Source: a virus. From it: 23,728 bases of DNA. The translations under genes and the position numbers were made by a program. The DNA lies in IMG/VR virus record IMGVR_UViG_3300043823_000274, positions 1-23,728 of that record; one strand, written 5' to 3'. A model generated the notes under the pieces. It worked only from the letters and a program-made list of their open reading frames with translations, was not told where the DNA came from and ran no database searches. This document shows, one piece after another, positions 5,485-21,598 of this stretch (within the stretch, counting starts at the first letter, position 1; every line of letters begins with the position of its first letter).

Positions 5485-5790
5485 TTAATTTCCCTCAAAT
5501 AATTTCCAGTCGTCAGACAACATATCGGTCTGAGAGGCTAACCAACCAGACAAGTACGCTTGACGACCTTCTGAATTAACTGTCCACATATCAATATGCG
5601 GAAGGATTTCCATACCATCCAAGCCACGGCTTTCAAGAAACTCTTTGGTAATCGGGCCATTTGGTCGCAAATTTTCCTTCATTACCTTGTATCCTCCTGC
5701 CATAAGCAAAAACATACCTTTCCCGTTCCATCCCTCGCGGGTTACTTGTTTGCCGTTTTTAAGGGCTTGTATCGCTTCTCCAAAATTCAT
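5485..5790 (-). CDS. tad2: DUF2829/Tad2-like protein, probable Thoeris anti-defence sponge
   Basis: The protein has 101 residues and carries the hallmarks of the DUF2829 family: an N-terminal MNFGEAIQALKNGK, then REGWNGKGMF (18-27) and a C-terminal WLASQTDMLSDDW (83-95). The best-studied member, phage SPO1 Tad2, binds and sequesters the cyclic ADP-ribose signal of Thoeris, and some homologues also bind cyclic oligonucleotides of other defences. ATG 5790 has GGAG seven bases upstream and overlaps the nuclease stop codon (ATGA), so translation is probably coupled. The region between the two motifs, about residues 30-80, contains a charged insert that could alter ligand choice. The family call is fairly secure; activity against a particular defence is inferred. 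Confidence 0.8.
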   Translation of the reverse strand: MNFGEAIQALKNGKQVTREGWNGKGMFLLMAGGYKVMKENLRPNGPITKEFLESRGLDGMEILPHIDMWTVNSEGRQAYLSGWLASQTDMLSDDWKLFEGN

Positions 5791-6584
5791 TTTGATACTC
5801 CAAAGTTGTTTTTAAGTTTCCAGTAAGATAATAAGCAATTAAACATCTCCCAACCCTTCTCAAGGTCTTCCTGAGTCCACTCAACGATCTTGACAAGGTT
5901 AGGAATTCGTCGGCTGATAAAGACGTTAGCGCATCGAGCTGCGGGTAGCCCTAAGCCCCACCGATAAGCCGCCAGTTGCATCAAGTGTTCGTCGTAACCC
6001 TTGACCTCATCGTCTTCCGAGAAGTCCTTGGTCTTAACGTCCAACACAATGCCCGTGGGGGCGGTTTGGGATGGCTCACAGTACATATCAACCTTACCCC
6101 CAAAGCGAAGCACAAATGAAGCGAATGAACGCTCCAATAGCCACTTCTCATTGGGATGGGAGTTGAAGAACTTATGAATAGCCTCGTCCGTGGCTAATGC
6201 CTGTTCCTTGTGAACAACGTCACGCTCACCCTTGAACCATTTCTCAATGGACTCATGGATGCGCGTACCGTCCTCAGCCGCCTGTTTAGCGGTTTCCTTG
6301 GAGTCGGCGTTTATACGGGCTATAAAATCCTTCTCAGGCTCGTCAGGGAGCCTTGGCAGGGTAAGGGCTGCCAAGAGCATCTGTTCGAGCTTCCAAGCCT
6401 CTAGAGCGGGCTTGGCGGCGATTTTAAGGATAGTGGTGACCGATGGAACCAAGTTCATCTTACGGGCGTCACGCAGCGTTGTAGGGCGCTGTGAGCCGTC
6501 CTTGGCCTTTACCGTGTACTGGGGTGAGCCGTCCTGACCGTACCAGTGAACGGACTCTGCTGCCCTAGCAATAATTGTTGTCAT
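5787..6584 (-). CDS. RecB/Cas4-like PD-(D/E)XK exonuclease
   Basis: The protein has 265 residues. It shows the ordered motifs of this nuclease fold: DGTRIH (105-110, His 110), a conserved Glu-Arg at 151-152, GGKVDMY (162-168, metal-binding Asp 166), LDVKTKD (181-187, Asp 182 and Lys 184) and QLAAYRWGL (203-211, Gln 203 and Tyr 207). I see no four-cysteine iron-sulphur cluster, so it is closer to stand-alone phage exonucleases than to classical Cas4. It lies two genes downstream of the SSB-like gene, which points to end-resection or recombination-dependent replication. Both of its ends overlap neighbours by four bases (ATGA). The gene is clearly more GC-rich than the gene upstream. Confidence 0.85.
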   Translation of the reverse strand: MTTIIARAAESVHWYGQDGSPQYTVKAKDGSQRPTTLRDARKMNLVPSVTTILKIAAKPALEAWKLEQMLLAALTLPRLPDEPEKDFIARINADSKETAKQAAEDGTRIHESIEKWFKGERDVVHKEQALATDEAIHKFFNSHPNEKWLLERSFASFVLRFGGKVDMYCEPSQTAPTGIVLDVKTKDFSEDDEVKGYDEHLMQLAAYRWGLGLPAARCANVFISRRIPNLVKIVEWTQEDLEKGWEMFNCLLSYWKLKNNFGVSK

Positions 6585-6951: not shown

Positions 6952-7578
6952 CTAAAAAGGAATTTCTTCATCGTCGTTTGCATAGCTCGGCGTCGGTTGA
7001 GCCTGAGACAGCTTTTGCCATTCGGGTGACGAGGCAATCTTGGCTTTCAGGTTTTCCGAGAATGTATTGAACATTTCCATATCAGGATTACTCAAGGTAA
7101 ACATTTCGAGCTTATTGATGCCCTGCGGCATACCTTGCTGACGAATCATTGCAGGAACTGGAGTGATTGTAGAGACGTTCATGTACGTCTTTCCGTTAGC
7201 CCCTGCACGTTCGATGACGTTTACCATACCCCATTGACCTAAGACGTTCTTCAGATCAAATCGGTTTAGCTCGTCCTGACTGAATGGCTTACCGCGCCAC
7301 GATTGCAAGTCCTGACGTAGCGTAGCTTTGTCAGACCAACTTAAGGTGTAGTTTTTGAAAATGGCAAAAGGACGACCGTCCCGCATTTTGACTGAACTGC
7401 CACCATCGCTGATGATGCTCAATTCAAATCCAAACATTACCTTGTGCTGAAATTTGACCGTTCCCTGAAATTCGGTCTTCTGTGTACCCAGATCGACGAT
7501 CCGATAGCACCGACCCAAATGCGACCCAGTTGGTGCGCGCTCGAAGTCCCCACCCTTGTTTTCTGCATATAAACTCAT
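6952..7578 (-). CDS. Phage single-stranded DNA-binding protein (SSB-like)
   Basis: The protein has 208 residues from ATG 7578, which is preceded by GGAGG; an in-frame start 33 bases upstream lacks this support. The middle is beta-rich, as expected of an OB-fold (around FQGTVKFQHKVMFGFELSI and YTLSWSDKATLRQDL). The C-terminus is acidic and ends DDEEIPF, the type of tail by which SSB proteins recruit partners. It is the first gene of the minus operon and precedes a nuclease. Family members coat single-stranded DNA during replication and annealing. The assignment rests on overall pattern and the tail rather than on a single diagnostic motif. Confidence 0.7.
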   Translation of the reverse strand: MSLYAENKGGDFERAPTGSHLGRCYRIVDLGTQKTEFQGTVKFQHKVMFGFELSIISDGGSSVKMRDGRPFAIFKNYTLSWSDKATLRQDLQSWRGKPFSQDELNRFDLKNVLGQWGMVNVIERAGANGKTYMNVSTITPVPAMIRQQGMPQGINKLEMFTLSNPDMEMFNTFSENLKAKIASSPEWQKLSQAQPTPSYANDDEEIPF

Positions 7579-7601
7579 AACCTGCCTCCATTGGCATAAA
7601 A

Positions 7602-7617
7602 ACGGCAACATTGCCGT
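7602..7617. promoter_or_regulatory. Palindromic operator candidate between the divergent units
   Basis: ACGGCAA (7602-7608) and TTGCCGT (7611-7617) form a perfect 7+7 inverted repeat with two bases between. It lies just downstream of the predicted minus promoter and upstream of the HTH gene. This is a typical place for a Cro-like repressor to bind. On the minus strand it is followed by T5, so a weak terminator or attenuator is an alternative. Confidence 0.5.
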
Positions 7618-7675: not shown

Positions 7676-7876
7676 ATGAACTTAAAGCAATATTTCAAAG
7701 ATGAGCCATTTGGCGCCAAACGTGAAATGGCTGATTATTTAGGCGTTTCGCCTACATGGATTAGCTTAATCATGCACAAAAAGCGCAAAGTTAGCCCACA
7801 ATTAGCTAAAAAAATAGAAAAAGCCACACAAGGCTTAGTTACAGCAAAAGAGTTAAGACCTGATATTTTTGGTTAA
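7676..7876 (+). CDS. Small Cro/YdaS-like helix-turn-helix regulator (66 aa)
   Basis: The protein has 66 residues and consists mainly of one helix-turn-helix: REMADYLGVSPTWISLIMHK (about 16-35) contains the turn and recognition helix, followed by KVSPQLAKKIEKATQG as the supporting helix. YdaS/Cro-type proteins act as dimeric DNA-binding regulators. ATG 7676 has a strong GGAGG site. It is the first rightward gene and faces the SSB operon across a palindrome, the arrangement of an autoregulating switch. No second repressor or integrase is visible, so this is more likely an early-gene timer than a lysogeny switch. It could also control the genes downstream. Confidence 0.75.
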   Translation: MNLKQYFKDEPFGAKREMADYLGVSPTWISLIMHKKRKVSPQLAKKIEKATQGLVTAKELRPDIFG

Positions 7877-12043: not shown

Positions 12044-12069
12044 GTGAACAGTTTATTTTGGAGAAAGTT

Positions 12070-12678
12070 ATGGAAACACTAGACGAGTCAGTCCTTTTCC
12101 CTTCTACGGTATACGCGATCAAGAAGCCTGAGTTTCTTGAAGTGGTTAGTAAGGTCTCGGCGCAGTATATGCAAGCGTATAAGCCCAACGAACCTCAGAT
12201 GACAGTTATGACTGGCGGTTTTGCGCATGAACCTGAAGTCAAGGACTTTGCTCAATACGTTTCCCAGACCGCATGGAATATCCTCAAGTCACAAGGATTC
12301 GCTATGGATAATCTTGTGACCTACTTCATGGAAATGTGGACACAGGAACATAACAATCACAGCCACATGGAGTACCACGTTCACGGACTGGGCGCTCAGA
12401 TATCGGCGTTTTACTTTCTGGAAACTCCACCCGAAGGCTGTCGGTTAATTCTCCACGACCCTCGTCCGGCCAAAGTGATTACGAACTTACCAGAGAAGGA
12501 CTTTAGCAAGGTTAGCGCGGCATCCACCCAGATCGTTTTTACCCCAAATGCAGGTACGTTGTTCTTTGCCCCTGCGTGGTTGCCGCACAGCTTCAGCAAA
12601 AATATGGATGAAAAGCCAACGGTATTTGTCCACATGAATTTAGGGGTTGTTGCCGCACCGCAAGCCGAGGTTATATGA
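12070..12678 (+). CDS. 2OG-Fe(II)-dependent oxygenase
   Basis: I chose ATG 12070 (202 residues), preceded by GGAG; an in-frame TTG at 12058 would overlap that site. Family marks are EYHVHG (101-106, His 103 and His 105 as first metal ligand region), ISAFYFLETP (111-120), LILHDPRP (127-133) and GTLFFAPAWLPHSF (162-175) with His 173 as the distal iron ligand, then FVHMN. This matches the phage 2OG-Fe(II) oxygenase group found often in aquatic phages. The enzymes use 2-oxoglutarate and oxygen to hydroxylate a substrate; the phage substrate is unknown (protein or nucleic acid). It is the first gene after the structured RNA region and is coupled to the next gene by ATGA. Confidence 0.8.
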   Translation: METLDESVLFPSTVYAIKKPEFLEVVSKVSAQYMQAYKPNEPQMTVMTGGFAHEPEVKDFAQYVSQTAWNILKSQGFAMDNLVTYFMEMWTQEHNNHSHMEYHVHGLGAQISAFYFLETPPEGCRLILHDPRPAKVITNLPEKDFSKVSAASTQIVFTPNAGTLFFAPAWLPHSFSKNMDEKPTVFVHMNLGVVAAPQAEVI

Positions 12679-13415: not shown

Positions 13416-14351
13416 ATGAACACAATAGAATTTGGTGACTGTCGGGAGATTATGCGTCAATGGGCATTGAACGGTGTCAAGGCTCAGACTTGCGTCACAT
13501 CACCACCCTATTATGGACTTCGAGACTATGGTCACGATGGTCAATTGGGATTGGAGCCTACGCCCGAAGAATATATTGCAAACATGGTTGAGGTGTTTAG
13601 GTGCGTGAAAGACGTACTTGCCGATGATGGCACATTGTGGCTGAACATCGGGGACAGTTACGCAGGAAGCGGTAAAGGCCCTGCGGGCAATTTAGGTAAA
13701 ACATTTAACGAACGTCACATGGAACACACCCACAGTAGCGGATTGGTTCCCAAGGGCTGTAAACCTAAAGACCTCATTGGCATACCGTGGATGCTTGCTT
13801 TTGCGCTTCGCTCCGATGGCTGGTATTTGCGACAGGATATTATCTGGCATAAACCAAACCCAATGCCAGAATCGGTGAAAGATCGTTGTACCAAGGCTCA
13901 CGAGTACATTTTTCTATTGTCAAAGTCAGAACGATACTTTTTCGACAGCGAGGCAATTAAAGAACCTGTGGCCGTAAGTACCGTTTTAAGATTATCGCAA
14001 AACTTAGAAAATCAAATTGGTAGCAATCGCGTTCCTTGCAAAATTAACGGAACTATGAAAGCCGTTGGTAACAATGAAACGCGAAACCGACGAAGCGTTT
14101 GGTCAGTTACGACTCTGCCGTACAAAGGCGCCCATTTTGCTACATTCCCACCGACCCTTATTGAGCCATGTATCTTGGCAGGTAGTCGGATGGACGATAT
14201 TGTGTTAGACCCTTTTATGGGGAGCGGAACAACGGCTCAGGTAGCGTTTGAAAATGGTCGTCAGTACCTTGGCTGTGAATTAAATCCTGAGTATCGCCAA
14301 TTACAACAGCGGCGGTTATCAGAATTAGTATGTCAATTCAAATTAATTTAG
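13416..14351 (+). CDS. DNA methyltransferase, SPPY type (N4-cytosine or N6-adenine, class beta)
   Basis: I chose ATG 13416 (311 residues), since an upstream start would overlap the resolvase. The catalytic motif is TSPPYYGLRDYG (28-39) near the N-terminus, and the cofactor motif DPFMGSGTT (255-263) with GCELNPEY (276-283) near the C-terminus, the class beta order. SPPY is typical of N4-cytosine enzymes but also occurs in adenine enzymes. No target-recognition assignment is possible; residues about 85-240 hold the variable region. No restriction endonuclease is adjacent, so it looks like an orphan modification gene that may protect phage DNA. The ribosome site is weak. Confidence 0.85.
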   Translation: MNTIEFGDCREIMRQWALNGVKAQTCVTSPPYYGLRDYGHDGQLGLEPTPEEYIANMVEVFRCVKDVLADDGTLWLNIGDSYAGSGKGPAGNLGKTFNERHMEHTHSSGLVPKGCKPKDLIGIPWMLAFALRSDGWYLRQDIIWHKPNPMPESVKDRCTKAHEYIFLLSKSERYFFDSEAIKEPVAVSTVLRLSQNLENQIGSNRVPCKINGTMKAVGNNETRNRRSVWSVTTLPYKGAHFATFPPTLIEPCILAGSRMDDIVLDPFMGSGTTAQVAFENGRQYLGCELNPEYRQLQQRRLSELVCQFKLI

Positions 14352-20326: not shown

Positions 20327-20367
20327 TTGCAGTCCGCGCTGAAAGTATGCGCACTTGAGGACTGCAA
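20327..20367 (+). promoter_or_regulatory. Leader hairpin in front of the ParB-methyltransferase gene
   Basis: TTGCAGTCC (20327-20335) pairs perfectly with GGACTGCAA (20359-20367), with an inner GCGC (20336-20339) / GCGC (20349-20352). The right arm includes part of the ribosome site GAGG (20357-20360) and ends one base before the start codon, so the fold would limit translation. Confidence 0.6.
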
Positions 20368-20368
20368 T

Positions 20369-21598
20369 ATGTCGAAACAAAACCCAGCCGATAAAATTGA
20401 GCTTTGGAACACAGATAAGCTCATCCCTTTCGCTAAGAACTCGCGTACCCATAGCCCCCAACAGGTCGCCCAAATTGCGGCAAGCATCAAAGAGTGGGGA
20501 TTTACAACCCCAATTCTTGTTGACCCCGAAGGAAGCGTCATAGCGGGTCACGGACGCTTGATGGCCGCGCAAAAGCTAGAGCTGCCCAAGGTGCCTGTGG
20601 TCGTGGCCAAGGACTGGACTGACGCCCAAAAGCGGGCTTACGTCATAGCGGATAACAAATTAGCCTTGAATGCGGGTTGGGATGAAAACCTTCTGAATTT
20701 AGAACTCACTGAATTAGGAGAAGGCGGGTTTGATATATCACTAACGGGGTTCTCCGCTGAGGAATTAGAAGCTTTAAAGCCAATTGTGATGGGCGGCGGT
20801 TTAACCGACGACGATGCCGTACCAGAGGCCGCCGAGGAATCAGTAACCAAGGTTGGTGACGTATGGGTTATGGGCAAGCACAGGCTTTTATGCGGCGACA
20901 GTACCAAGGTTGACGATCTTCGAAAGCTATGCGCCGACCAGTTAGTAGATATGTGGCTAACAGACCCACCGTACAACGTTGCTTATGAGGGCAAAACAAA
21001 AGACGCCCTTACAATCAAAAACGATTCTATGCAGGACGATACTTTTAGACAGTTCCTGCGAGACGCTTACGTTTCCGCAGATACGGTAATGAAGCCCGGC
21101 GCTGTATTTTATATTTGGCATGCTGATTCAGAAGGATACAATTTTCGCGGTGCAGCAAAGGACGCAGGTTGGAAAGTACGCCAGTGCCTGATATGGAAAA
21201 AGTCTTCTATGGTCATGGGACGGCAGGATTACCATTGGAAGCATGAACCTTGCCTGTACGGATGGAAGGAAGGCGCAAGCCACTTGTGGGCAACAGACCG
21301 CAAACAAACCACAATCTTAGAGTTTGATCGTCCTAGCCGTAGCACCGATCATCCTACTATGAAGCCAGTATCCCTATTTGAATACCAATTGCTTAATAAC
21401 ACCAAAGGCGGGGATATTGTACTAGACAGCTTTGGTGGATCAGGAACGACTTTAATAGCAGCAGAGAAGAACGGTAGGGTGGCTAGACTGTTAGAGTTAG
21501 ACCCCAAATACTGTGATGTAATCGTAAAGCGATGGCAGGAATACACAGGTAAGGACGCCACGCTTGAAAGCACGGGAGATAAATTCAATGACCTATGA
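20369..21598 (+). CDS. ParB-domain and DNA methyltransferase fusion
   Basis: The protein has 409 residues. Residues about 10-100 form a ParB/Srx-type domain (VDPEGSVIAGHGRLMAA, with GHGR at 60-63). A methyltransferase follows: DPPYNVAYEG with catalytic DPPY at 199-202, WHADSEG, HEPCLYGWK, and FGGSGTT (355-361) near the C-terminus, the class beta order. DPPY favours N6-adenine methylation. Such fusions are common in phages next to the terminase genes. I chose ATG 20369 (GAGG eight bases upstream), since a TTG at 20327 lies in the hairpin. No endonuclease partner is adjacent. It overlaps terS by 11 bases. Confidence 0.9.
   Translation: MSKQNPADKIELWNTDKLIPFAKNSRTHSPQQVAQIAASIKEWGFTTPILVDPEGSVIAGHGRLMAAQKLELPKVPVVVAKDWTDAQKRAYVIADNKLALNAGWDENLLNLELTELGEGGFDISLTGFSAEELEALKPIVMGGGLTDDDAVPEAAEESVTKVGDVWVMGKHRLLCGDSTKVDDLRKLCADQLVDMWLTDPPYNVAYEGKTKDALTIKNDSMQDDTFRQFLRDAYVSADTVMKPGAVFYIWHADSEGYNFRGAAKDAGWKVRQCLIWKKSSMVMGRQDYHWKHEPCLYGWKEGASHLWATDRKQTTILEFDRPSRSTDHPTMKPVSLFEYQLLNNTKGGDIVLDSFGGSGTTLIAAEKNGRVARLLELDPKYCDVIVKRWQEYTGKDATLESTGDKFNDL

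Follow-up and report, generated by a model that had tools for sequence, protein, structure and literature searches.

Tad2 proteins are a known counter-defence family of sponges, to which the gene analysed here adds one member. Tad2 has been described as forming tetramers that hold two gcADPR pockets, lined by the β1–β2 loop, the β3–β4 loop and strand β4 of one protomer and by the β1–β2 loop, the β4–α3 loop and helix α3 of another (PMC12043709). Cyclic dinucleotides are bound apart from these pockets, via a long β2-to-β5 insertion, and such insertion-dependent binding has already been reported for HgmTad2 and SptTad2 (PMC12043709). A Myroides Tad2 homologue takes His-ADPR as its ligand (PMC13299392), and SPO1 Tad2 takes gcADPR; 3'3'-cGAMP is not bound by SPO1 Tad2 (PMC11722364).

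Four characterised members served for comparison. SptTad2 was solved with cGG (PDB 8wjd) and ModTad2 with His-ADPR (PDB 9eib). HgmTad2, deposited as AcrIIA7, was solved with 1',2'-cADPR and with cGG (PDB 8kbi-8kbm). SPO1 Tad2 (gp34.65; PDB 8sme-8smg) is the founding anti-Thoeris member. The window, that is, the whole stretch of DNA analysed, is a virus record of 23,728 bases at its full length, and its Tad2-like gene lies in a leftward operon (Table 1).

Table 1 Features of the Tad2 gene and its surroundings in the window
Feature	Coordinates	Strand	Basis
Tad2-like protein, 101 aa (PF11195)	5485..5790	-	Pfam, phmmer, AlphaFold model
Codons of residues 19-24 (EGWNGK), within the nearly invariant β1–β2 loop, presumed ligand pocket	5719..5736	-	Conservation and PMC12043709
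Codons of residues 31-59, subgroup insert AGGYxVxK..LR.P..PI..xFLESRGL	5614..5700	-	Alignment
Codons of residues 73-80, hairpin SEGRQAYL	5551..5574	-	Alignment and model strands
Small core operon gene, 74 aa	5259..5483	-	tblastn, 82/85 lineage loci; weak DUF2560, below cut-off
PD-(D/E)XK-type exonuclease, core gene	5787..6584	-	PHROG 298, E 1.5e-16
ORFan cargo gene, 120 aa	6581..6943	-	No family above threshold; 4-bp overlap with exonuclease start
NGO0469-family phage replication initiation protein, first gene of the leftward operon	6952..7611	-	NCBIfam NF046043, E 1.4e-57
Cro/YdaS-type regulator, divergent, adjoining the operon	7676..7876	+	PF15943, E 1.5e-12; PHROG 35 repressor, E 6.9e-14

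The window gene is a member of the Tad2 family

The open reading frame is intact, with 101 codons, an ATG start and a TAA stop. A preliminary description made from the DNA letters had assigned it to DUF2829 by the motifs REGWNGKGMF and WLASQTDMLSDDW. Both motifs are present in the frame, and sequence, profile and predicted fold all confirm the membership. Against Pfam PF11195, whose current name 'Tad2-like' replaces DUF2829, the protein scored 81.8 bits (cut-off 25, E 5.2e-23), with residues 1-97 aligned to positions 1-72 of the 73 in the profile. In a phmmer search of the PDB the nearest solved protein was SptTad2 (E 1e-18), and only SptTad2, HgmTad2/AcrIIA7, ModTad2 and SPO1 Tad2 were matched at E <1. 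PADLOC, a library of defence systems, returned no match for the protein.

Relatives are encoded by 331 stretches of viral contigs, the best 80 of the 331 at 42-80% identity, and 311 isolate phage records matched, each below 60% identity. In an alignment of 51 sequences 16 columns are invariant. Together with the 331 viral stretches, this places the Tad2 match well past chance. The conserved R-x-GWNG-K-GM loop and the C-terminal motif W-x-[AP]-S...D...DW, whose columns are invariant or nearly so across the 51 sequences, are both present in the window protein. These results indicate that the window gene is an ordinary member of the Tad2 family, from an environmental phage. Elsewhere among the relatives, a 223-kb phage contig carries a tandem pair of Tad2 genes (L072:7678-8276), which are 32% and 49% identical to the query.

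Predicted fold and presumed signal pocket

A single chain was predicted with AlphaFold2 from the 51-sequence alignment, giving a mean pLDDT of 93.7 and a pTM of 0.80. Compared with Tad2 structures, as the preliminary description had proposed, the model proved to have the Tad2 fold. Foldseek returned 24 matches at E <0.001, every one a Tad2 chain, with the SptTad2-cGG complex at the top. In VIA-align, ten Tad2 entries scored Z 10.3-12.3 and the next fold 5.4; the superposition on SptTad2-cGG (Z 12.3) covered 95 residues at rmsd 2.7, followed by AcrIIA7/HgmTad2 (11.8), ModTad2 (11.2) and SPO1 Tad2 (10.3-11.1).

SptTad2 belongs to the same family, is equally long (101 aa), is about 40% identical to the window protein and has an insertion of comparable size and the WLASQTDM motif, and HgmTad2 shares the family and the motifs GWNGKGM and WLASQTDML; HgmTad2 has been solved with its ligands, whereas the window protein is known here from sequence and a model. 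ModTad2 resembles the window protein in its fold and N-terminal loop but has 88 aa, lacks the insertion and reads W-TPSVSD in place of WLASQTD. SPO1 Tad2 is alike in fold and differs in its length of 89 aa (PMC13299392), in lacking the long insertion and in leaving 3'3'-cGAMP unbound.

Across the 51 sequences the invariant residues are R18, G20-G23, M26, W83, A85-Q87, D89, D94 and W95, and those of the window protein fall within the parts of Tad2 that are said to form the gcADPR pocket (PMC12043709). Its own pocket contacts are thus presumed, from conservation and the published description of Tad2. The invariance of residues in the β1–β2 loop and in the β4–α3 region points to sequestration of an ADP-ribose-type signal as the most likely activity of the protein. 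In all, the window gene probably encodes a Tad2-family sponge that is co-expressed with a replication/exonuclease operon and sequesters a nucleotide immune signal. Thoeris is the likely target of such a sponge, and CBASS is perhaps a further one.

A subgroup insert and the possible binding of cyclic dinucleotides

The preliminary description had also pointed to a charged insert at residues 30-80 that might set ligand specificity. An insert does exist, yet its charge is not special: 13 of these 51 residues are charged, against 11 of the 50 elsewhere in the protein. Seven positions, A31, G32, G33, Y34, V36, F51 and L52, are identical in 18 of 18 close relatives, and most of them differ in SptTad2, HgmTad2 and ModTad2. 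The model shows residues 34-37 of the insert as a strand and residues 49-54 as a helix; the insertion is similar in length to those of HgmTad2 and SptTad2 and different in sequence motif. A role in specificity is plausible and had already been reported for HgmTad2 and SptTad2 (PMC12043709), but the VKSLP-type sequence of these two proteins is absent from the window insert.

A narrower form of the sponge explanation follows the example of HgmTad2 and SptTad2: the protein would be a dual sponge, with the tetramer pocket taking ADPR-type signals and the β2–β5 insert taking cyclic dinucleotides. Its 101 aa match SptTad2 (101) and come near HgmTad2 (104), against 88-90 for ModTad2 and SPO1 Tad2, and the modelled strand and helix within the insert, the cGG complex as top structural match and the reported insertion-dependent binding all agree with this. 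However, where SptTad2 and HgmTad2 have VKSLP and the R-P near residue 31, the window protein has AGGY and NLRPNGPIT, and the shorter SPO1 Tad2 fails to bind 3'3'-cGAMP (PMC11722364). We regard dual binding as a serious possibility that falls somewhat short of probable.

A longer hairpin beside the presumed pocket

A second difference, absent from the preliminary description, lies in the hairpin at residues 72-80. Its length exceeds that in SptTad2, HgmTad2 and ModTad2 by four residues, and it contains a conserved G-R. The model has strands at residues 65-71 and 77-80. When the published names are mapped onto the model by fold position, the hairpin would correspond to the β3–β4 loop of the gcADPR pocket. 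Its GRxA motif occurred in 46 of 78 parsed viral relatives and 1 of 29 parsed genome relatives, counts that are not frequencies, as the viral sample was picked by closeness to the query; all the solved Tad2 sequences that were compared lack it. Alongside it, H65, D67 and W69 stand in place of Y, C/A and Y/K in SptTad2, HgmTad2 and ModTad2, so that the window protein reads HIDMW where SptTad2 reads YFCMY.

With a hairpin longer than in the solved relatives beside the presumed pocket, the ligand could differ. The GRxA-hairpin subgroup might be tuned to a signal outside those tested to date, be it a further ADP-ribose conjugate or a different cyclic nucleotide. The four extra residues with their G-R, the three substitutions, the distribution of GRxA and the varied ligand range of Tad2 homologues (PMC12043709, PMC13299392) speak for such tuning; against it, the core loop residues are invariant and extra hairpin length can be neutral, and we hold it to be unlikely. 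That the GRxA/AGGY subgroup, which environmental phages commonly carry, has a remodelled pocket for a signal not shown to be bound by any characterised Tad2 is quite a long shot. If true, the subgroup could point to a TIR or cGAS-like signal of the hosts that has so far gone unrecognised.

The window gene is of value because it represents a large environmental subgroup unlike the solved Tad2 proteins in precisely two places, the insert and the hairpin by the presumed pocket. The subgroup offers concrete proteins for asking how one fold is retuned among gcADPR, His-ADPR and cyclic dinucleotides.

Inhibition of Cas9 by an AcrIIA7-type anti-CRISPR protein, with no signal sequestration, is very improbable: the second-best solved relative was deposited as AcrIIA7, but the structures of that protein include complexes with 1',2'-cADPR and cGG, which document sponge activity for AcrIIA7/HgmTad2, and nothing within the window points to Cas9.

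Operon context and accessory cargo

The Tad2 frame overlaps the 3' end of the exonuclease gene by 4 bp (ATGA), which bears out the nuclease coupling proposed earlier, and a GGAG Shine-Dalgarno-like sequence lies upstream of its ATG. Neighbouring genes of the operon either share 4 bp or lie almost end to end, and a Shine-Dalgarno-like sequence was present at all four ATGs examined. The coupling of Tad2 and nuclease is positional.

Lineage members of the first operon gene end in an invariant C-terminal IPF after acidic residues, like the tip of a single-strand DNA binding protein; a search of solved structures with this gene gave no match. The exonuclease has invariant residues G163/K164/D166, D182/K184 and Q203/Y207 (15 sequences), a PD-(D/E)XK pattern. 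Only weak Cas4 matches were obtained for it in PADLOC, and a search of the plasmid collection gave none. When its profile was searched against solved structures, the only hits were chains named protein A over a 45-residue stretch, which were taken as chance.

Searching with the exonuclease and with its alignment yielded 85 lineage loci, a number that excludes the window and one duplicate; some of the 85 are near-copies from related samples. The conserved order is an NGO0469/SSB-like gene, slot A, the exonuclease, slot B and a homologue of the 74-aa gene. Slot A is shorter than 60 bp in 23 of 81 loci and otherwise reaches 1.2 kb, and slot B is below 60 bp in 39 of 82 and otherwise reaches 1.8 kb. 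The Tad2 profile matched in 4 of the 85 lineage loci, once in the first slot (L100) and three times in the second (L015, L016, L142). Tad2 is therefore an occasional accessory cargo of a conserved core replication/exonuclease operon, and its presence in 4/85 loci, in either slot, is as expected for counter-defence cargo. Elsewhere the slots hold an RtcB RNA ligase, a C-5 cytosine DNA methylase, a Band-7 protein, an HNH nuclease and a gp49-like protein (coordinates, listed together: L102:4804-6000, L116:6789-7907, L100:6779-7714, L118:5563-6000, L107:7370-7813). The slots of the exonuclease operon thus show a cargo-island pattern, and the two of them are a place to seek more counter-defence genes.

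This distribution bears on the two small neighbours that had been put forward as further anti-defence candidates. The 74-aa gene is a poor candidate, because it is a core gene, present in 82 of the 85 loci with or without Tad2. For the 120-aa ORFan, family profile searches gave nothing above threshold and no relatives were found in viral contigs, so only its position is informative.

The distribution also makes hardly credible the view that Tad2 serves the recombination operon structurally or as a regulator, as a partner of the exonuclease and with no role against host signals: the 4-bp overlap fits such a role, but the exonuclease operon lacks Tad2 in 81 of the 85 lineage loci and Tad2 relatives occur in phages without this operon.

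Two further ideas about the slots were set aside. Repeated gain of Tad2 in the lineage was considered, as the window copy and those of L014-L016 were not grouped in the tree; a single clade was not rejected (AU p 0.43), and repeated gain is therefore not claimed. Recurring mis-frame open reading frames suggested a shared DNA element before the cargo genes, but this DNA is the gene of a small hydrophobic membrane-type protein in another frame. That conserved and very hydrophobic frame, of about 45-60 codons, precedes slot cargo genes in other loci (L016:7838-7990, L138:5562-5711, L129:5470-5620, L093, L151, L158) and is absent from the window.

The Tad2 proteins of three lineage phages (L014/L100, at L100:5519-6004; L015:8001-8486; L016) carry a basic C-terminal tail that contains HWTQT and ends in RKPRGKKK or RGSKK. 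Tails of this kind are also seen on unrelated slot cargo, namely a gp49-like protein (L107) and small proteins (L094, L138), which gives the impression of an exchange of tails between cargo genes.

Proposed mode of action

With family, predicted protomer fold, operon layout and accessory distribution shown, the sequestration of a nucleotide signal can be outlined as follows. Tad2 would be expressed along with the phage replication/exonuclease operon, its cargo-slot position giving co-transcription without a role in the recombination machinery. The small α/β protomers would assemble into a homotetramer. Host TIR or cGAS-like enzymes would make a nucleotide signal, which the sponge would bind and hold without cutting it; gcADPR or His-ADPR are the candidate signals, and cyclic dinucleotides might be taken up via the insert. 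With the signal sequestered in time, the suicide effector would not be triggered, and the phage would be protected.

Other genes in the window

Farther along the window are two N6/N4 DNA methylases (13419-14351 and 20360-21598), the second with an N-terminal ParB_N domain, and a putative 2OG-Fe(II) oxygenase (12058-12678, PF13759).
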